20,337 bases of DNA from a virus. The notes beneath the pieces were generated by a model. The model did no database searches. It had not been told where the DNA came from and worked only from the letters and a program-made list of their open reading frames with translations. Position 1 is the first letter of the stretch. Every line of letters starts with the position of its first letter. The stretch covers positions 1 to 20,337 of IMG/VR virus record IMGVR_UViG_3300032288_001910, one strand, 5' to 3'. This document shows, one piece after another, positions 1 through 18,560 of this stretch. The position numbers and the translations under genes are program-made.

Positions 1-509
1 CTAAAACTGTTGAAGAGATTCAAGACAACCTTGACTTGCCTAATATTTATTCAATACTTGATATTTCTGCAGGAATAAAAATTAGTAAAGAATCCGAAGA
101 GGCCGTAAAAGACCAAGCAAAAGATAGCGGAACTACTTGGGATGAACTAGATCTTGCAAAACTAGAATCTGAAGTATTTTTGTTGGGTATATGGAAAGAC
201 TATCAAGAACTAGAAATATCATTGTCAATGCCAGAACTACTGGCAACACTAGCAAGCAAAAGAGAATTAGACTATGAAGAAAAGAAGTTTTTAGCAGCAA
301 TTCAGGGAGTTGATTTAGAGGGAGAGTCCAATTCTGGCAAGGGACAAAAAGAATGGGAAGACATGAAAGCCAGAGTATTTAGCCAAGGGGCTACATCTGA
401 TAGTAATGATGTTCTTTCACTACAAGGTGTTAATGCACAAAAGGCAGGGTTTGGTATTGGTTTTGGTCTTGATTATGAAGACGCTAGAGACCCCTCCGTT
501 ATGCTATAA
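1..509 (+). CDS. Tail assembly chaperone, long form (5' end outside window)
   Basis: The frame is open from the left edge (first full codon at base 3) to TAA at 507-509, so the N-terminus is missing. The TTG at 36 lies inside an already conserved stretch and is not a credible start. The visible part begins with a segment (LDLPNIYSILDISAGI) that resembles the C-terminal half of the next gene's product (LDLPTVYKIVEAASGI). It continues with an acidic, helix-rich extension containing WDELDLAKLESEVFLLG and RELDYEEKKFLAAIQGVDL, and ends in a Gly/Phe-rich tail. A position just before the tape measure gene and this two-part build fit a G/GT-type chaperone, which coats the tape measure protein during tail assembly in the host cytoplasm. 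In most siphophages the extension is added by a ribosomal frameshift; here core and extension share one frame. The family call rests on context and remembered actinophage proteins. Confidence 0.65.
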   Translation, partial: KTVEEIQDNLDLPNIYSILDISAGIKISKESEEAVKDQAKDSGTTWDELDLAKLESEVFLLGIWKDYQELEISLSMPELLATLASKRELDYEEKKFLAAIQGVDLEGESNSGKGQKEWEDMKARVFSQGATSDSNDVLSLQGVNAQKAGFGIGFGLDYEDARDPSVML

Positions 510-510
510 T
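502..510 (+). promoter_or_regulatory. Possible extended -10 promoter
   Basis: TGCTATAAT is a perfect TGn-TATAAT extended -10 element overlapping the last codons and stop of the long chaperone gene. Transcription would start near 517, leaving a leader of about 20 bases with the AGGAGG site intact before the ATG at 538. No convincing -35 hexamer lies 16-18 bases upstream, and the sequence also encodes Met-Leu-stop, so chance is a real alternative. Confidence 0.3.
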
Positions 511-525
511 TAACTAAGCCTACAC

Positions 526-531
526 AGGAGG
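526..531 (+). promoter_or_regulatory. Strong Shine-Dalgarno site AGGAGG
   Basis: A perfect AGGAGG lies six bases before the ATG at 538. The segment AGGAGGAAATTAATGGC is almost identical to the start region of the gene at 15676 (AGGAGGAAATAAATGGC). It fixes the start at 538 and suggests high expression of the short chaperone gene. Confidence 0.75.
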
Positions 532-537
532 AAATTA

Positions 538-858
538 ATGGCAACAAAGGTATATGAGGGTAACAAACTTACTCTAATTGACGGAACAGAAATTGAGGTC
601 AGACCTCTTAAGATTTCTCTACTTCGTCCATTTATGAAGAAGTTTGAAGGAGTAGCAGCGGTGGCAGACAATAATGAAAAGTCAATGACTCTTCTTGTTG
701 AATGTGTACAGATTGCTATGGAACAGTATAAGCCAGAATTGGCAAAAGACTTAGGTGCATTGGAAGAACTTCTAGACCTTCCAACTGTTTATAAGATTGT
801 TGAAGCAGCATCAGGCATTGACCTTGGATCTGCAGCAGACATTCTTGCATCTGAATAA
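538..858 (+). CDS. Short tail assembly chaperone-like protein
   Basis: This 106-residue protein begins at an ATG with a perfect AGGAGG and a 28-base gap after the long chaperone gene. Its N-terminus is beta-like (VYEGNKLTLIDGTEIEVRPL), followed by helices and the segment LLDLPTVYKIVEAASGI. That segment matches the in-window start of the preceding product (LDLP, Y, I, G and I conserved). It is therefore probably a paralogue of the chaperone core without the C-terminal extension, that is, the abundant G-like partner. The tape measure gene follows after 22 bases. A chaperone role is inferred from position and the internal similarity. A minor virion protein is the alternative. Confidence 0.6.
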   Translation: MATKVYEGNKLTLIDGTEIEVRPLKISLLRPFMKKFEGVAAVADNNEKSMTLLVECVQIAMEQYKPELAKDLGALEELLDLPTVYKIVEAASGIDLGSAADILASE

Positions 859-880: not shown

Positions 881-3800
881 ATGGCTGATGTAAATGCTAA
901 TATTGGCGTAAATATTGATACGTCTGCAGCATTAGAGCAACTCAAGGCTCTACAACGTCAGATCTCACAGTTTCACACCTCAATCGCTAAGTCTAGTGAA
1001 GCAGCAGCACTTGCACAGAGGGATCTGCAGAGAAACTTTCTTAATAGCGTAAATGCTATTGGGGCTTTCTCTGCAGAACTCCGCACTGTTAAAACAACAT
1101 CAGAATCTTTTACTTCGTCTCTTGAAAAGAACAAGTTCTCAATGCGAGAATACTTTCGCTATGCGGGAGCAGCAACACAAACATTTGGTAAGTTATTTAG
1201 GTCCGAGTTTGACACAATTGGCAGGGTAGCAGAAGACAGAGTAAAGACACTTCAGACTCAGTACATCAAGATGGGTCGTGATGCCTCTGGAGCAATGAAG
1301 GCAATAGCAATAAGACCAGATCAACTTGATATGGGTAATTATTCAACACAGTTACAAATTGCTGCACAAAAACAAGCACTATTTAATCAATTAATGAAAC
1401 AAGGTTCTACCAATCTTCTAAACTTTGGTAAGAACACACAGTGGGCTGGTCGTCAGTTGATGGTTGGATTTACCCTACCACTTATTGCACTTGGTAGCGC
1501 TGCATCAAAAACCTTTATGGACATGGAAGCAGCAGCACTAAAGTTTAGAAAAGTTTACGGGGATTTATTTACACCACAGGCAGAAACAGATCAAGCGCTA
1601 GCAGATATTCAAGCACTTGGAAGAGAATTTACTAAGTATGGTATTGCCGTATCTGACACTGTTGGGCTTGCAGCAGATGCTGCAGCAGCAGGCTTTAGTG
1701 GGCTTGATCTTCAAAGACAGACTGCCCAAGCAACAAGACTTTCTGTACTTGGTCAAATTGATAATCAGCAAGCACTTCAAACCACTATTTCTTTGCAAAA
1801 TGCATTTGCTATTTCTAGCGACCAACTTGCAGATAGCATTAACTTCCTTAACGCAGTTGAAAACCAAACTGTAACATCTCTTGACGATATTACTATTGCA
1901 ATTCCAAAGGTTGCTCCAGTTATTCAGCAACTTGGTGGAGATGTTAAAGATCTTGCATTCTTCTTAACAGCAATGAAGGAGGGTGGAGTAAACGCATCAG
2001 AAGGTGCTAACGCACTCAAGTCTGGTCTTGCAGCATTAATTAACCCTACTAACTCAGCACGTAAGATGCTTAAGGGAATGAACATTGATATTGATGCTAT
2101 AGTCAATAGTAATAAAGGAGACCTTAAAGCAACAGTAATTGGGTTTGCACAAGCACTTGACACACTTGCTCCGCTTGCAAGAGCAAGAGCAATTGAGACT
2201 ATGTTTGGTAAGTTCCAGTTTGCTCGTCTATCAACATTGTTCCAGAATGTAACAAAAGATGGAACTCAGGCAGCAAGAGTTCTTCAGTTAGCAGGTTCTT
2301 CAGTAGAAGATCTTGCTGCATTATCTGACAAAGAATTAGGAATGACTGCAGAATCTGCAATGAATAAATTTAAGAAGGCTGTAGAAGATCTTAAATTTGC
2401 AATCATCCCTGTCGGAGAAGCATTCTTAAAAGCAATAACTCCAATCCTTGATTTTATAACTAATATTGCAGAAAAATTCTCAGGTCTATCTGATAGAACT
2501 AAAAAAGCAATAACGCTTATGGTTACTGTTATTGCTGGCCTTGGCCCAGTACTACTTATGACATTTGGTTTGCTTGCTAATGGTGTAGCAAACATTATAA
2601 AGTTGTTCTTAACACTTCGTACAGGATATCAAAAATTAACTGGGCAATCAAAAAATCTTGGTGAACAAACTCAGTATATGACCATGGAGCAGTTAGATGC
2701 AGCAGCAGCAGCACACTCTCTTAATCAGGCACACGCAACACTAACACAACAGTTTACCGCAGAAACAAATGCAGTAAAGCAACTTATAACTGCATATCAA
2801 AATGCAACAACAGCGGGTGCAAGATTTGCAATGACTAACCCTGGCATGATGATGCCACCAAATGTAAGAAAGATGGCAGAAGGTGGAATTGTTGTTGGTC
2901 CTGGCACTGGAACATCTGATTCAGTTCCAACAATGCTTTCAAATGGTGAGTCAGTAATTCCAGCAGATAGAACAAAGCAATATGGTGGATTAATTCGTGG
3001 AATTATTGCTGGAAATATTCCTGGCTTTGCTGGTGGAGTTGTTAACTTTGGTGGTAAAAACTTTAATATTCCAGTAACATCAAGAACATCACAAGGAGCA
3101 ATTGAGGGTATTCTTTCTAAATTTAGCAAGGACATAGAAGGTCTTACACTTGCACTTGATGCACTAGAAGCAAACGCAAGAGAACTTGGAATGTCTTTCC
3201 AAGAAATGAAAGCAGACGAACTAAAAACATTCTTAGATGAATTTGGTGTTGAAAGAAATAGAGCAAAGGGTAGTGCCTCATCTGGAGGATTTGTTTTTGC
3301 ACATGCACAAGAGCGTGGAGATGACGTAAGAGATATTCAAGAAATACAAAGATTAGTAGATTTATCAGATGGTGCTGTTAAGAAATATCTTCAAGCAACA
3401 CTAGACCAATTAAAATCTGCAGAAACAGCAAGAATAGAACTTGCAGCAGCAGAAAAAGAACAAGCATCACTTATTAAAAAACTTAGTCAAGCAAAAACTG
3501 ATTCAGAAAAATCAGCAATACAGGCTCAACTTGTTGCAATAGAAGAAACAAAGGCTTTAGCGCAAGGGGTTATAAAAGCAGCAGAATCAGCCAAAACATA
3601 TACTCTAAGTAACTTTGGATTTGTTCTTCCAGAAAAAGCAAATAAAGGAAAAATGTCTCCTACTGCAGTTGCAGAACAGTTTACTGGCGAAAATATGTCA
3701 AGAACGATGGTACCTATTTATGCTGAATATGCAAGAAAACTTGGAATGTCACTTGATGAAGCATTGGCAGATCCAGCAATCGCTGCACAAATGCATGCAG

Positions 3801-6800
3801 ACATGGCTCAATTTGGACAGTTAATATCTAATGAAATAGGAAAGGTTACAACAGATTTCTTGGCTGACCCAGACTTTTATGCTGCTGTTGAAAGAGCAAG
3901 ACAAGGACTTACTGGAGCAGTATCAGATATATTAATTGATGCTGTTAATGATTTAAAAAAGGTGTCAACAGTTGTAACCCAAGGTGGTGCGGCAAATAGA
4001 GGCTCTGAAGGACAAAGAACTGGAATTGCTCAAAGAGAAACAGCACTTCGTAATTACTTAGGGGTTGCTCAAGGAGGAATATCCTATAGAGATATTGGAA
4101 CAGCAGAATATGTTGCTATGGGTGCAAGAATACCTACGCCAGTACCAATTCCAACTACAGCCGTACAACCTTTTGCTAACTCAGCACCATTTCAATCAAG
4201 AGTTGATTTAAGTGGTCCATCAGCAAGTAATCTAAACACTAATCCTGCACAAGTAAATAGACTAGTTTCTGGACAGTCTGGACTTCCACAGTTAACAGAA
4301 CAACAAATTCAAGAAAGAAATGCAAAGGCACTTGCAAGAATTAAAAGAAATTCTGAAGCAATGGCAAATCAAGCAGTTCAATCAACTGCAGCAGCAGCAG
4401 GAACTCAGTCTCCATCAAGAAGAACAATTCCAATTGGAGAAGATATTGCTCGTGGTTTAGAAGTAGGAATGAACAATAGAAAAGATGATGTTGCAGTAGT
4501 CGCACAGTCTCTTGCAGGTGCTGCCGTAGGAGGTACAAAAGGTCCAAGAGGATCATATAGACCACAAGGCCCATCAAATGTTCCAGCAGCAGTTCTTAGA
4601 CAAACAGAAGAAAAGATGGCAAATGCAAGAACAACAGCAGCATCAAGAGCAGCACAGCAGCAACAGCAACAACAGCAAGCACTCACTGCTGCAGCATTAA
4701 AAGAAAAACAAGCACGTGAAGCATCTGCTGCTAGAATGGGCAAATTTAATAATGCAATTCAGGGTGGATCATTTGCCTTAATGAGTCTTTCTGGTGTAGC
4801 ACAAATGTTTGGCGGTAGTCTTGGAAAGATATCATCAGTAATTTTTACCCTCTCTGGAGCACTGTTTGCATTACAAACCATAACACAGTTATTAACGCAA
4901 GCAAAAGCACTAGAATTAATTCAATCAAGATTTGGTATGGCTAAAAATGCTATGAAGATGGCAAAGGGTGGAAGCGGAATTGCTGGCATGGGTGGTCTTC
5001 TTGGAAAGTCTGGCTTGATGGGAAATATAGCCAGAGTTGGACTTGGAATAACTAGATTCTTAGGGCCAATTGGATTAGCAGTAACTGCTGTAACTGCACT
5101 TGTTGGTGGATTTAAACTTCTTCGTAACTGGCAAGAACGTCAGAGAATTGCAATTGAAGGTTTGGGAGATGCTGCACTTCTTTCATCAGAAAAGTTAAAA
5201 ACTCTTGGTGATTTCTTTGGAGTTACTCCGCAAAAAACACCACTTGAAAGAACTGGTACACAACTTATACTTAACCAAGAAAAAAGAAGTGAAGTTGACA
5301 AACTAAGAGACTCTGAAGGATTCCAAAAAAACTTTAAGACAGATATTGCCTCTTTAAAGGGAGCAACTGACAGTCAGGCTGCACTTATACTAAAATCTTT
5401 AACTGTGCAATTAAAGGGTAAAGGTTTTGCTAAAGATCAAATTGACACAATTATAAAGTCACTTCAGGAGGAATCTGGAAAGACTAATCTTAATATTGAC
5501 TTTGCTAGTATAGATCTTGCAACAAAGGGTGGACAAGAAAATCTTGCAAAGAGTGTTCAGGCCCTTGGCAATCGTTTTGGAAAGCAGTTTGGCAAGGGGT
5601 ATTCTGCCGAAACAGGTTCTGCAATTAATCGTGCAAACGGAAAAATAGTTACATGGACAAAAGAAACCCTAAGTAAGGGTTTACAGAAAAACTTAAACTT
5701 AACAGCAAAAGCATTTACTGGAATGATAAATGGTCTTTCTGGTCAACTTGCAAATGGTAGCATAAATGCACAACAATTTAACCAATCATTTGGTGCTATT
5801 TCAGATACAATTACAAAAATGCCAAGGGCACAGGCAATGCTTCTTCTTAATAATATTCTAAAAACTATGCCTGGAGAACTTGCTAAGTCAGCAATTGGAA
5901 TGAAAAAACTTTCAGACAAAATGCTTATTATGCAAGCAGCAGCATTAGGTGTAGCAACAATTACTCAAGAGATGAAAGATGTTTTGAATGCAGCAGCAGA
6001 AAACCCTAATGACTCAAGGTATCAGCAGGCAGCAGCCTTAACTAGAGAAAAAATTAAGAAGGACATGGAATTAATACTAAAGGGGTACGAAGATATAGCA
6101 AAGGCTCAAGATGCTGCAGATGCTAAAGAAAAGGGCGAAGGAAAGAAGAGTAACCTACAACTTGCAATTGAGCAATTAAAGAAACAGCAATCAGAACTAA
6201 AGAATACTGCTAAGGCCTATGCTCTACTTCAGAAAGCAGGGCTTGATTCTGCAACGGCTATGGAATATGCAAAAGATCAGACAATTGCACTTGGTCTTGC
6301 AACAAAGGGACTTAAGTTAGATCAAGTAAGAGAGTTTGCAGAATTAATGAAGCAAATTTCAGCAGGTGCTAATTCTCAAAGTCTAAAAGAATTTTTTGCA
6401 AACCTTAAAAAAGAGAATGAATCCAAAGCAGCATTTTCTAAAATATCTAAAGACATTTATGCAATGGGTGGAAGTTTAGAAGACATTAATAACATTATGG
6501 AAAATTCTGCACTAGTTGAAGGTTTCTTAGATGCAGAAAAGGGAGCAGCAAGAATTCAGCGTTATCTTGATTTAATTAAAACTGGCAAGGCACTAGACCT
6601 TAAGATTCAACTATCAACCCCAGAAGGTGTTGAAAAAATGTTTAGTGATTTATCAGACAAGGCTAATCAATACTTTGATATCCTTGAAAGAAATGTTGAA
6701 AAGAAATTTAAAAATCCTATTAAGGCTGCAGAAAAGGCTGCTACAGATACTGCCAATGCAGTAAAAAAGATTCAAGATGAAATAACTGGACTACAAGATG

Positions 6801-8098
6801 AATCTTCCAAGATTCAAAGAAAAATTGAAGAAAGTATAACTAGACCTACAGATCTTTTGCAACAAAGAAATGCAGTGCTTTCTGAGAATATGACACTCAT
6901 TGACAGCATAGCAGAAGGCATAAACGAAAAATATGATGCACAGGCAAATGCTCTTTCTAAGGTTTCTGAAATTAATCAAGAAATTGCAAACCAGCAAAGG
7001 CAACAACTTGATCTTGCAAGTGCAATAACAACTGGAGATATTGCTGCTGCAGCAAAGGCTGCACAGGAGATGAGAGCACAAGCAGCATCTGCTAGAAATG
7101 AAGCATCTGCTAAAACATTAGAGGCATCAAGACAATCAGAACTTGATAGAATAACAGTTAATGGAATGACTGCAGCACAAATTAAAAAAGAACAGTTTGA
7201 TATTGATAGAAAAATTTATGCACTTGAGCAGCAAAGACTTCCACTTACAAAATCTATACAAGATATTGAAGATGACATTTATAAGATTCAAAATGGTAAA
7301 TTACTAACTGCACAAAAGCAGCAAGAAGAAGCAGACGCACTTCTTCAAAAACTTAAAGATGAAAAACAAGCAGAACTTGATTCAATTGAGTTACAAAAAG
7401 AATACTGGATAGACACTCAACTTGAAATTGATAATGCCAAGATAAAGGCTGGAGAATTTAATGATGTTCTTGATATGTCAATTACTAAACTAAAAGCAAT
7501 GGTTGATTTATGGAGAAGCCTACAGGGAGCAACTACCTCATCTTCTTCAGGCGGGGGACAAACAACAACTACATCAACTGTTACACCAGAAGTAGTAGAT
7601 GATATTGCAACAACAATTGTTGATAAGGTTACAACAATTCCTTCATCTGTAATTAGAGAAAAATATATAAATGAAGCACAAGCATCAAGTTATCTTGCTG
7701 ATCAGGCAATTACTTCTAGAGGGCTTGGCAATAGAGCAGCAGGAATGCTAAAGGGTATGCTTGGTTTTTCAGGTGGAGGTATGGTTCCGAAGTATTTTGC
7801 TGCAGGTGGATTTGCTCGTGGTACCGACACAGTTCCAGCAATGCTGACACCTGGAGAGTTTGTTGTCAAGAGATTTGCGGTAGATAAGTTTGGACTTAAC
7901 AATCTTAATGCTATTAATGATGGAACATTTAGACCAAAATCAACGGTAGCATCTGTAAACAATAATTCCAATTCAGTGTATAATTATGGTATAAGTGTTA
8001 ATGTTTCTAACTCAAATGCAAGCACAGACGATATTGCAAGGGCAGTAATGACTCAGATTAGAAATATTGATAATCAAAGAATTAGAGGGCAAAGATAA
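881..8098 (+). CDS. Tail tape measure protein
   Basis: This 2405-residue protein fixes tail length and passes through the tail tube during DNA ejection. The ATG at 881 has AGAGGTGAT just upstream. Residues about 185-475 look like the TP901-type tape measure core: a hydrophobic GRQLMVGFTLPLIALG start, then FTKYGIAVSDTVGLAADAAAAG. Hydrophobic segments lie near 190-210, 545-580, 1295-1337 and 1392-1415. A Gly-rich GPGTGTSDSVPTMLSNGE motif at 668-697 recurs near the C-terminus at 2309-2331. SPSRRTIPIGEDIARGLEVGM near 1176-1197 matches the SPS...iG..i..Gl..G motif common in tape measures. Residues 1259-1266 are eight glutamines. A long coiled-coil-prone region spans about 1940-2217. The end (IARAVMTQIRNIDNQRIRGQR) is basic. 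Residues 705-1170 show no domain I recognise. The gene overlaps the next by one base (TAATG). At roughly 0.15 nm per residue the tail would exceed 300 nm. Confidence 0.93.
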   Translation: MADVNANIGVNIDTSAALEQLKALQRQISQFHTSIAKSSEAAALAQRDLQRNFLNSVNAIGAFSAELRTVKTTSESFTSSLEKNKFSMREYFRYAGAATQTFGKLFRSEFDTIGRVAEDRVKTLQTQYIKMGRDASGAMKAIAIRPDQLDMGNYSTQLQIAAQKQALFNQLMKQGSTNLLNFGKNTQWAGRQLMVGFTLPLIALGSAASKTFMDMEAAALKFRKVYGDLFTPQAETDQALADIQALGREFTKYGIAVSDTVGLAADAAAAGFSGLDLQRQTAQATRLSVLGQIDNQQALQTTISLQNAFAISSDQLADSINFLNAVENQTVTSLDDITIAIPKVAPVIQQLGGDVKDLAFFLTAMKEGGVNASEGANALKSGLAALINPTNSARKMLKGMNIDIDAIVNSNKGDLKATVIGFAQALDTLAPLARARAIETMFGKFQFARLSTLFQNVTKDGTQAARVLQLAGSSVEDLAALSDKELGMTAESAMNKFKKAVEDLKFAIIPVGEAFLKAITPILDFITNIAEKFSGLSDRTKKAITLMVTVIAGLGPVLLMTFGLLANGVANIIKLFLTLRTGYQKLTGQSKNLGEQTQYMTMEQLDAAAAAHSLNQAHATLTQQFTAETNAVKQLITAYQNATTAGARFAMTNPGMMMPPNVRKMAEGGIVVGPGTGTSDSVPTMLSNGESVIPADRTKQYGGLIRGIIAGNIPGFAGGVVNFGGKNFNIPVTSRTSQGAIEGILSKFSKDIEGLTLALDALEANARELGMSFQEMKADELKTFLDEFGVERNRAKGSASSGGFVFAHAQERGDDVRDIQEIQRLVDLSDGAVKKYLQATLDQLKSAETARIELAAAEKEQASLIKKLSQAKTDSEKSAIQAQLVAIEETKALAQGVIKAAESAKTYTLSNFGFVLPEKANKGKMSPTAVAEQFTGENMSRTMVPIYAEYARKLGMSLDEALADPAIAAQMHADMAQFGQLISNEIGKVTTDFLADPDFYAAVERARQGLTGAVSDILIDAVNDLKKVSTVVTQGGAANRGSEGQRTGIAQRETALRNYLGVAQGGISYRDIGTAEYVAMGARIPTPVPIPTTAVQPFANSAPFQSRVDLSGPSASNLNTNPAQVNRLVSGQSGLPQLTEQQIQERNAKALARIKRNSEAMANQAVQSTAAAAGTQSPSRRTIPIGEDIARGLEVGMNNRKDDVAVVAQSLAGAAVGGTKGPRGSYRPQGPSNVPAAVLRQTEEKMANARTTAASRAAQQQQQQQQALTAAALKEKQAREASAARMGKFNNAIQGGSFALMSLSGVAQMFGGSLGKISSVIFTLSGALFALQTITQLLTQAKALELIQSRFGMAKNAMKMAKGGSGIAGMGGLLGKSGLMGNIARVGLGITRFLGPIGLAVTAVTALVGGFKLLRNWQERQRIAIEGLGDAALLSSEKLKTLGDFFGVTPQKTPLERTGTQLILNQEKRSEVDKLRDSEGFQKNFKTDIASLKGATDSQAALILKSLTVQLKGKGFAKDQIDTIIKSLQEESGKTNLNIDFASIDLATKGGQENLAKSVQALGNRFGKQFGKGYSAETGSAINRANGKIVTWTKETLSKGLQKNLNLTAKAFTGMINGLSGQLANGSINAQQFNQSFGAISDTITKMPRAQAMLLLNNILKTMPGELAKSAIGMKKLSDKMLIMQAAALGVATITQEMKDVLNAAAENPNDSRYQQAAALTREKIKKDMELILKGYEDIAKAQDAADAKEKGEGKKSNLQLAIEQLKKQQSELKNTAKAYALLQKAGLDSATAMEYAKDQTIALGLATKGLKLDQVREFAELMKQISAGANSQSLKEFFANLKKENESKAAFSKISKDIYAMGGSLEDINNIMENSALVEGFLDAEKGAARIQRYLDLIKTGKALDLKIQLSTPEGVEKMFSDLSDKANQYFDILERNVEKKFKNPIKAAEKAATDTANAVKKIQDEITGLQDESSKIQRKIEESITRPTDLLQQRNAVLSENMTLIDSIAEGINEKYDAQANALSKVSEINQEIANQQRQQLDLASAITTGDIAAAAKAAQEMRAQAASARNEASAKTLEASRQSELDRITVNGMTAAQIKKEQFDIDRKIYALEQQRLPLTKSIQDIEDDIYKIQNGKLLTAQKQQEEADALLQKLKDEKQAELDSIELQKEYWIDTQLEIDNAKIKAGEFNDVLDMSITKLKAMVDLWRSLQGATTSSSSGGGQTTTTSTVTPEVVDDIATTIVDKVTTIPSSVIREKYINEAQASSYLADQAITSRGLGNRAAGMLKGMLGFSGGGMVPKYFAAGGFARGTDTVPAMLTPGEFVVKRFAVDKFGLNNLNAINDGTFRPKSTVASVNNNSNSVYNYGISVNVSNSNASTDDIARAVMTQIRNIDNQRIRGQR
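2882..2971 (+). repeat. Tape measure Gly-rich motif, internal copy
   Basis: Residues 668-697 contain GPGTGTSDSVPTMLSNGESV, a motif common in tape measure proteins. It shares G-T-(S)-D-(S/T)-V-P-x-M-L-x-x-G-E-x-V with the C-terminal copy. The two copies are about 1,640 residues apart. Confidence 0.6.
4655..4678 (+). repeat. CAR microsatellite encoding eight glutamines
   Basis: Eight consecutive CAG/CAA codons encode Gln1259-1266 of the tape measure protein, in an Ala/Gln-rich helical stretch just before the hydrophobic region. The mixed CAG and CAA codons limit, but do not exclude, replication slippage. Confidence 0.9.
7805..7873 (+). repeat. Tape measure Gly-rich motif, C-terminal copy
   Basis: Residues 2309-2331 contain GTDTVPAMLTPGEFVVKR, the second copy of the motif seen at 668-697. 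It sits about 75 residues before the C-terminus, where such motifs are usual in tape measure proteins. Confidence 0.6.
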
Positions 8099-17036: not shown

Positions 17037-17344
17037 TGGCTGACCGCAAAGACCGCATGGCTTTGCTCAGTAGATTCAACAAATTTTATACACAACGCTA
17101 TGAGCGTAAGTCTAATATGAACTTAAATGTTGAACAGTGGGCAGCAGATGCTCTCGTAGAATCATACGGTATTTCTGAATGCTATGATTTATTAGAATAT
17201 TACTTTAGTGTTGCACAAGATCCAACATGGAATTATTTTGCTTACAATGCAGAAAAAATTCTTAATGGTAAACTAGAAGTAGAAGAAGACATTAAGCAAA
17301 GAGCAGAACTAAGAAAAAAGGCAAAGGAGTGGCTAAGTGAATAA
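17036..17344 (+). CDS. Unknown protein upstream of the helicase; possible helicase loader
   Basis: This 102-residue, mostly helical, highly charged protein has N-terminal basic residues (ADRKDRMALLSRF), a central aromatic segment (SYGISECYDLLEYYFSVAQD) and a charged C-terminal helix. It is coupled to the gene before by a one-base overlap and to the DnaB-type helicase gene by an eight-base overlap. In many phages the gene just before the helicase encodes its loader, and small helical loaders are common. This is a positional guess; no loader motif is visible. Confidence 0.55.
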   Translation: MADRKDRMALLSRFNKFYTQRYERKSNMNLNVEQWAADALVESYGISECYDLLEYYFSVAQDPTWNYFAYNAEKILNGKLEVEEDIKQRAELRKKAKEWLSE

Positions 17345-18560
17345 TACAGAAGCAAAAGTAATCTCCGCAGTATTGGCCGATAAACAACTTCATGTTTTGC
17401 TTCAGGCAAATGTAGAGACATTGCTTCGTACACATAACGATGTATGGAATTTTATTAGACTGTATGCAGAAAATAATGGCACAGTCCCACCAACATCATT
17501 AGTTGTAGAAAAGTTTAGAGACTTCCAGCCAGTACAAGGTATAGGAGCAACAAAGCATCACCTAGAAGAACTGCAAACAGAATACTTAAACGATAGCCTT
17601 AAGGATATTCTAAGGTCCGCAGCAGGTGAAGTTCAAAATGGGCAAGGATCAATGGCACTTGAAGATCTTATTGCAAAGACTTCACAACTTAAAAAGAATA
17701 CATCTGCAATCCGTGATATTGATGCAACAGATATTGATTCTGCAATTGCATATTTTGAACAAGTAAAAGAACAACAGGCATTGGGCCATAGAGGAATTAA
17801 AACAGGTTTGCCAGGGTTTGATAACTATCTACCATCTGGAATTATGCCAGGGCAGTTAGGAGTCTTTCTAGCATATCCAGGTATCGGAAAGTCATGGATG
17901 GCTTTATACTTTGCTGTGCAAGCCTGGAAACAGGGCAAGACTCCACTCATAATCTCTCTTGAAATGAGTGAAACAGAAGTTCGTAATCGTGCTTTTACCA
18001 TTATGGGTGAAGGACTTTGGTCTCACCGTAAACTATCCAATGGTGAAGTAGAACTTGATATGATGAAGAAGTGGCATACAGATAAGATTGAAGGTCGCCC
18101 ACCATTCCATATCATATCTAATGACTCTGGTGGTGAAGTAACTCCATCAGTTATTCGTGGAAAACTAGATCAGTATAAGCCAGACTTTGTTGTGGTTGAC
18201 TATCTTCAGTTAATGAATCCAAACCAGAAGGCTGATAATGAAACGGTAAAGATGAAAAACCTTTCACGAGAACTTAAACTTATGGCTATTAGTGAAGAGG
18301 TACCAATCATTGCTATCTCATCTGCTACTCCAGACGATGTAAAGGATTTGTCAACAGTTCCTACCCTTGCACAAACAGCATGGTCTAGACAGATTGCCTA
18401 TGATGCTGACTGGGTTTTAGCACTTGGTCGTGCAAGCAATAGTGATATTATTGAGTGTGCATTTAGAAAGAACCGTAATGGTTTTATGGGAGATTTCCTA
18501 GTTCAGTGTGATTTTGACAAAGGTTATTATCGTTACAAGGATTTTGAAGATGGCAAGTAA
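17337..18560 (+). CDS. DnaB-family replicative helicase
   Basis: This 407-residue protein has a GTG start with AAAGGAG seven bases upstream, overlapping the previous gene by eight bases. It drives strand separation at the fork as a ring-shaped 5'-to-3' helicase. Visible motifs: Walker A AYPGIGKS (179-186, the DnaB-type variant AxPxxGK[ST]), catalytic Glu209 in SLEMSETEVRNR, Walker B VVVDYLQLM (Asp288), and the C-terminal KNRNG with a likely arginine finger (Arg380). The N-terminal 150 residues form a short DnaB-like helical domain. At the H3 position, where DnaB proteins have SQLNR, it reads ISSATPDD (327-334), lacking the usual Gln. The primase gene overlaps its last 11 bases. Confidence 0.9.
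   Translation: MNNTEAKVISAVLADKQLHVLLQANVETLLRTHNDVWNFIRLYAENNGTVPPTSLVVEKFRDFQPVQGIGATKHHLEELQTEYLNDSLKDILRSAAGEVQNGQGSMALEDLIAKTSQLKKNTSAIRDIDATDIDSAIAYFEQVKEQQALGHRGIKTGLPGFDNYLPSGIMPGQLGVFLAYPGIGKSWMALYFAVQAWKQGKTPLIISLEMSETEVRNRAFTIMGEGLWSHRKLSNGEVELDMMKKWHTDKIEGRPPFHIISNDSGGEVTPSVIRGKLDQYKPDFVVVDYLQLMNPNQKADNETVKMKNLSRELKLMAISEEVPIIAISSATPDDVKDLSTVPTLAQTAWSRQIAYDADWVLALGRASNSDIIECAFRKNRNGFMGDFLVQCDFDKGYYRYKDFEDGK

Follow-up and report, generated by a model that had tools for sequence, protein, structure and literature searches.

In most long-tailed phages a ribosomal slip produces two forms of one tail chaperone at a fixed ratio, and few recoding events of tailed phages are as highly conserved as this -1 slip. 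In lambda, many copies of G coat the tape measure protein and a few copies of GT bring in the major tail subunit, at a molar ratio of about 30:1 (excerpt of PMC5009743). A TP901-1 mutant in which gpG and gpT were permanently fused in frame formed intact-looking, non-infectious particles (excerpt of PMC4493119). The authors of PRFect counted 342 SEA-PHAGES genomes in which two chaperone genes stand without a joined frameshift, and suggested incomplete annotation for many of them (excerpt of PMC10885494). With regard to initiation, genes of Actinobacteria are taken to be leaderless when the Shine-Dalgarno sequence is replaced by a -10 signal lying about 12 nt ahead of the start codon (excerpt of PMC3160421), and leaderless promoters have been predicted in cluster O mycobacteriophages (excerpt of PMC4351075).

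The window analysed here (the whole stretch of 20,337 nucleotides of IMG/VR virus record IMGVR_UViG_3300032288_001910) resembles lambda in that a G domain and a T domain are encoded just before the tape measure gene. The resemblance stops at the manner of expression: gpG and gpGT of lambda arise by a programmed -1 frameshift, whereas the lineage of the window has two paralogous genes with separate initiation signals (Table 1). We propose that in this chaperone module the programmed -1 frameshift was replaced by gene duplication, the long gene supplying GT and the short gene G, a reading to which we give a probability of roughly 0.83; the excess of G over GT seems to have been kept by other means.

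Table 1. Features of the chaperone module and tape measure gene in the window
Feature	Position	Strand	Basis and remarks
Long chaperone gene, GT	3..509	+	open frame, 168 aa visible, 5' end truncated by the contig edge
Visible end of the G domain (to ...DISAGI)	3..77	+	alignment to the short protein; family profile-profile E 1e-38
Linker, place of the slippery heptamer in frameshift relatives	78..134	+	codon listing and heptamer scan; without canonical heptamer
T domain (TWDELDLAKLE...)	135..506	+	homologous to the -1 frame T of Streptomyces phages
Proposed extended -10 of the short gene, TGCTATAAT	502..510	+	overlaps the long-gene stop codon (507-509); 27 nt 5' of the start codon
Shine-Dalgarno of the short gene, AGGAGG	526..531	+	duplex energy -10.3 kcal/mol
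Short chaperone gene, G	538..858	+	106 aa; separate paralogue of the G domain
Tape measure protein gene	881..8098	+	2405 aa; PhageMin_Tail E 6e-24; phrog_10030 E 2e-101

The tape measure gene lies directly 3' of the chaperone genes, and its product is presumed to be the client of both. In relatives, the long gene is preceded by a gene with a median length of 212 aa, whose end lies 64-87 nt away (55 loci); by its position, and as annotated in Francob, Faust and MindFlayer, we presume it to encode the major tail protein. Further 3' on the strand of the tail genes is a DnaB-type helicase gene (17337-18560, DnaB_C E 7e-29). Neither chaperone matches any Pfam family above the cut-off. In a profile search the short gene matches phrog_10504 (E 6e-19), and the long gene matches phrog_10474 with its C-terminal part (E 8e-14) as well as phrog_10504 (E 0.016). 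Both families are listed without function, and given these matches to the short G gene and to the T part of the long gene, they gain candidate functions, phrog_10504 as G and phrog_10474 as T.

Because the window's copy of the long gene begins outside the contig, its upstream half was read from relatives. Scanning viral contigs with the short protein gave 357 encoding stretches, the best 80 of which were kept. The short protein also matches the upstream stretch of the long gene in 78 of these best 80 of 357 (the exceptions are cut before that stretch, L008, or inside it, L064), and the visible part of the long gene is 61-87% identical to 78 relatives in the same set. Uncut long open reading frames of relatives measure 233-259 codons from stop to stop, some codons preceding the start included; together with the upstream match of the short protein, these reading frames show that the long gene joins G domain, linker and T domain in a single frame. 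The window's short protein and the N-terminal domain of complete long genes are 37-52% identical across an alignment of about 95-100 aa (E ~1e-21 to 1e-29), and when the long G domain and the short families are compared as profiles the alignment covers 99 columns from the first residue (E 1e-38). On sequence comparison we thus consider it confirmed that the two genes are paralogues of one tail assembly chaperone G domain, with T fused in frame to the long copy. A sequence-only reading of the window had arrived at paralogy from the likeness between the core of the long gene and the C-terminal half of the short protein, and had seen a same-frame extension on the long gene only; the first point is upheld by the identities and profile match just given and the second by the relatives, where uncut long genes are G plus linker plus T and the short gene is G alone.

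Structure prediction bears on the same question. A model of the long protein of a complete relative (L174, pLDDT 71) and one of the window's short protein (pLDDT 65) agree in the order of their G-domain elements, two strands and four main helices, from which we hold with moderate confidence that the upstream half of the long gene shares its predicted fold order with the short protein. A different fold in that half was one outcome that would have spoken against the sequence-only reading; what emerged for L174 was a matching order of strands and helices, beside the 99-column family alignment. In BFVD, a protein that bears the name tail assembly chaperone is matched by the L174 long model (E 9e-5, TM 0.73 by target length), and two BFVD proteins without a name match it better. 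The HK97 tail assembly chaperone 2ob9_B is the top row for the long model (Z 4.3, 87 residues, rmsd 5.8), a weak match tied with unrelated helical chains. Foldseek against the PDB gave nothing at E <= 0.001, no chaperone row appears in the VIA-align result of the short protein (which we did not count against the fold), and profile matches to solved structures, all at E 0.49 or worse, were taken as chance.

How general is the layout? Loci were fetched by the N-terminus of the tape measure protein, a neutral anchor that avoids picking loci by their chaperone layout; every scan was limited to its best 80 loci, and the layout counts are counts among the matches listed. With the window's own anchor (A2), 75 of the best 80 loci have a fused GT and a separate G, the other 5 being cut or ambiguous. 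The anchor of the Streptomyces phage Mandalore (A1) retrieved 76 frameshift loci, 1 fused and 3 other among its best 80, and that of the sister phage L166 (A3) retrieved 64 fused loci with a separate G, 12 frameshift and 4 cut, again among the best 80. After pooling of the overlapping anchor lists and collapsing of identical anchor sequences, the matches listed comprise 223 distinct tape-measure loci: 123 with fused GT and separate G, 93 with G and a -1 frame T, and 7 unclassed. In the layout classification, L144 and L158 show T without a usable G, L064 and L189 are cut, and L101 has a split G hit. The G at L144 and L158 and the short G at L185 seem broken or missing, for which either a sequencing error or a genuine loss may be responsible.

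In the tape measure tree built from 114 dereplicated rows, a single change suffices for the distribution of fused and frameshift layouts; on a tree with more sisters (61 rows) it takes two, and there a clade supported at 99/98 unites 39 fused rows and the frameshift locus L294. The two-gene layout therefore appears, as judged from these trees, to mark a single clade that is nested among frameshift phages and contains one frameshift locus. At that locus (L294:2810-3483) the tape measure gene falls inside the two-gene clade, yet a single G is followed by a -1 frame T, and this G groups with the G of frameshift sisters and with short genes, apart from long genes. A module swap or a reversal is the likely explanation, and a frameshift module inside the clade means that the two-gene layout is not immutable.

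Among named phages, tblastn with the T part as query (123-506) found 130 records, from 127 Streptomyces and 3 Rhodococcus phages, and the short protein found 124 phage-collection records, all of Streptomyces phages and each with one G place; the matched named records carry a tail assembly chaperone annotation (tblastn, G and T). Since the named relatives infect Streptomyces or Rhodococcus, the host of the window's phage was probably an actinobacterium. The only locus from the scan of genome contigs for hosts or prophages, L332, was discarded as a host clue for the clade because it has the frameshift layout and is uninformative; this phage-like frameshift tail module lies in a contig of 110 kb that bears the title uncultured cyanobacterium MAG and may be phage DNA placed in the wrong bin. 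In the Streptomyces phage Faust (L088:2794-3150) the second chaperone is annotated at 3091-3150 and the -1 T frame spans 2794-3150, which is likely an annotation slip.

The slippery site itself separates the two layouts. A canonical X XXY YYZ heptamer lies in the G/T overlap of 76 of the 86 frameshift loci (CCCAAAC in 38, CCCAAAT in 22, AAATTTA in 6, CCCAAAA in 5, others in fewer; the sister phage L166 has GGGAAAC), and the remaining 10 have CCCGGAA in its place (8) or neither (2: L167, L168). The loci with CCCGGAA at the conserved slip position (L082, L084, L085, L089, L091, L092, L093, L094) belong to Streptomyces phages of the Jay2Jay/Coruscant/Yaboi type and to near contigs. At fused junctions any canonical heptamer is found in 7 of 48 (8 occurrences, 7 different sequences), with no heptamer conserved across the 48, and the scan of the window's junction revealed no canonical heptamer. 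A frameshift site joining the long gene to another chaperone frame would also have told against the sequence-only reading; instead, G and T form one open frame in 75 of the best 80 window-anchored loci. Reverse slippage within the long gene was tested as well and is unsupported by the same heptamer counts.

If slippage no longer sets the ratio, initiation could. Signals were compared in 62 dereplicated two-gene and 74 frameshift rows of the listed matches, leaving out those in which the domain hit does not run from model position 1 or the start is missing (for the long gene, the window and L232; for the short gene, L232, L243, L249, L250, L272 and L323; for the frameshift G, L104, L105, L107, L109 and L112). 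None of 60 long genes has a Shine-Dalgarno sequence at or below -6 kcal/mol (median -2.1), and an extended -10 precedes all 60, its end lying 6-9 nt from the ATG in 58. Its hexamer is mostly TAGAAT, TAAAAT, TATACT or TAAACT; TATAAT occurs in 6/60, so the weakness of the long-gene promoter is a tendency. A terminator-like hairpin stands 5' of the long gene in 59/59 loci, compared with 18.4 in shuffles. Given the missing Shine-Dalgarno sequence and an extended -10 that ends so close to the start, the long gene is probably leaderless.

The short genes present the opposite picture. A Shine-Dalgarno sequence is found in 53/56 (median -10.2) and an extended -10 in 56/56, with the consensus TGnTATAAT in 55/56; the motif TGNTATAAT occurs within 60 nt in 55/56, the window included, and in 45 loci it sits 24-28 nt before the ATG. 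The terminator-like hairpin is rarer here (16/56, shuffles 8.2). A first, smaller set gave a shuffle expectation of 6.3/47 and 4.0/45 for the extended -10, and in it the short-gene Shine-Dalgarno was stronger than that of the long gene in 44/44 pairs. The stronger ribosome site that the sequence-only reading had assigned to the short gene is thus found again, in the AGGAGG of the window at -10.3 kcal/mol as against relatives' long genes, 0/60 of which reach -6. In the window, with both strands scanned, TGCTATAAT is the only copy of TGNTATAAT. Across 56 fused loci (460 kb) the plus strand holds 78 copies (55 at the short gene, 4 at the long gene and 19 in an upstream cluster) and the minus strand 7. 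The cluster of 19 copies lies about 1.5 kb 5' of the short gene, at the beginning of the presumed major tail protein gene; with start codons chosen by script, an extended -10 is present within 80 nt upstream of 43/55 of these genes, with TATAAT in 21. Because the sole other recurrent plus-strand TGNTATAAT precedes this presumed gene, consensus promoters seem to be kept for the two high-copy tail products.

Frameshift phages provide the reference state. The G gene of non-sister frameshift phages has a terminator in 56/57 (shuffles 17.4), an extended -10 in 46/57 and a Shine-Dalgarno sequence at or below -6 in 51/57. In the frameshift sisters, a set of 12 that includes the near-identical rows L166, L253 and L254 as well as L294, the -10 is present in 12/12, the terminator in 6/12 (shuffles 3.0) and such a Shine-Dalgarno sequence in 3/12 (median -5.9). 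These leader signals suggest that the short gene keeps the leader design of a single G, with a site stronger than in most sisters, while the long gene lost its leader; given the middling Shine-Dalgarno sequences of the sisters, retention of the sister state does not simply account for the short gene's strong site. The start codon is TTG in 34/57 non-sister frameshift G genes, and ATG in every long (60) and short (56) gene examined.

Codon adaptation, scored against the presumed major tail protein gene in a leave-one-out manner, follows the same division. The short gene exceeds the long G domain in 56/56 phages (medians 0.612 vs 0.456) and T in 55/56, a contrast that mirrors G over T in frameshift phages (69/72; 0.579 vs 0.471). 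Within the long gene the G part stands at 0.456 and the T part at 0.487, G being higher in just 14/56, and the long G domain is below the tape measure gene in 53/56: it has dropped to T's level or lower. Relatedness among the rows makes the p-values overstate independence, but the direction is uniform. The suggestion, made in the sequence-only reading, that two differently expressed genes stand in for the frameshift ratio thus draws support from the phylogeny, from the promoter and Shine-Dalgarno contrasts and from codon adaptation.

A G-T unit may have been duplicated, after which the first copy would have been fused in frame and the second would have lost T; the long gene would also have lost its 5' leader. 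The GT gene would now be transcribed from an extended -10 of its own, degenerate in most loci and placed directly after the terminator, and translated without a leader, and a poor promoter combined with a leaderless start would make little GT. A consensus extended -10 where the long gene ends, followed by a strong Shine-Dalgarno sequence, would produce much more G. By analogy with lambda, G would coat the tape measure protein and the few GT would recruit the major tail protein. Separate promoters and a leaderless long gene take the mechanism beyond what the earlier note had offered, and we regard them as probable. In broader terms, it is more likely than not that a conserved recoding event was dismantled in a large uncultured lineage and rebuilt as dose control at transcription and initiation (a weak, leaderless GT and a G with consensus promoter and strong Shine-Dalgarno), to the same balance. 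The frameshift and two-gene solutions seem interchangeable, since one phage inside the lineage again carries a frameshift module.

Other histories have to be weighed against duplication. The fused long gene might have been brought in from another phage by recombination, with no duplication in the lineage. G-domain trees show the long genes as one clade (99/95) and the short genes as another (99/99), and the free tree places the short genes with the G of frameshift sisters (98/96) and the long genes outside, as such an acquisition would predict; the frameshift module of L294 likewise suggests that modules are exchanged. A tree that joins long and short genes is however 3.2 log units better (AU p 0.547), and a donor was not recognised among the matches listed, so that we consider acquisition unlikely. 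As the free and joined trees are equally good, the order of duplication and divergence is not fixed by them: a split of the long G domain before the frameshift sisters diverged, which we also considered, is indistinguishable from a lineage-specific duplication (AU p 0.547). Less credible still is that the locus is an assembly artefact or holds a degenerate copy. The window is a contig fragment, which might raise that suspicion, but the layout recurs in 123 distinct loci among the matches listed, and median dN/dS is 0.135 for the long G domain, where 45 of 52 pairs were usable, 0.095 for T (48) and 0.128 for the short gene (52). Values near 0.1 indicate purifying selection on both genes and leave this explanation a negligible probability. 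Over the same pairs, median dS rises from the short gene (0.67) to the long G domain (1.13) and T (1.32); the lower value of the short gene may come from codon selection or recombination.

The products could also differ in function rather than in dose alone, the diverged long G domain having a task of its own, such as initiation only, at a single tape measure end, and coating being left wholly to the short protein. The two G domains within one phage are 29.6-49.0% identical (mean 39.7, 38 phages), the long G domain evolves faster (mean identity 50.7% vs 66.3% for the short gene) and is the less conserved in 679 of 703 phage pairs, and the long (LG) and short (SG) domains form separate, strongly supported clades; with such divergence the two proteins may not co-assemble as G and GT of lambda do. 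Against a division of labour, the two G domains share the predicted order of secondary structure, the 99-column alignment and the synteny, and the relative codon cues fit the G/T contrast of frameshift phages, which makes it an improbable account. Finally, a slip inside the long gene could yield a truncated G in the manner of dnaX, so that frameshifting would still set the ratio. The heptamers at 7/48 junctions are what such hidden recoding has in its favour, but they are unconserved and absent at the window's junction, a dedicated short gene is present, and the codon adaptation of the long G domain is as low as that of T (0.456 vs 0.487), unlike the G of frameshift phages (0.579 vs 0.471); we judge it very improbable.

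Under the duplication reading, a lineage with two genes and close sister phages that still slip constitutes a natural experiment, which says that selection keeps the ratio and not the act of slipping. For annotators, it follows that not every chaperone pair should be forced into a joined frameshift CDS. The parts of this system are already known; their arrangement, a fused GT with a separate G, is not described in the excerpts or titles of the open-licence PMC literature that the searches covered.

The nearest isolated relatives belong to the Stanwilliamsviridae (Jay2Jay, Coruscant, Wakanda, Faust, Yaboi and others), which have the same gene order, with G 29-37% and T 37-49% identical to those of the window in the rows listed. 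They differ in having a single G, with one G place per record (124/124), and a T in the -1 frame that overlaps G by 43-61 nt in 10/10 of the Streptomyces phages fetched. The N-terminus of the window's tape measure protein is 31-32% identical to those of three named relatives, and the comparison with this family concerns the tail module only. The TP901-1 fusion mutant, as far as the excerpted report goes, shares with our lineage an in-frame GT made without a slip; it is without a separate G, whereas the lineage of the window has one with strong initiation signals. That the fusion was non-infectious suggests that balance with free G matters and that a natural fused GT would need a separate excess of G, which is what the two-gene layout offers. 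The likeness to leaderless genes of Actinobacteria and of cluster O phages, as excerpted, lies in a -10 close to the start that replaces the Shine-Dalgarno sequence; unlike in those genes, the probable leaderless start of this lineage's long gene appears to help set the dose ratio of two paralogues.
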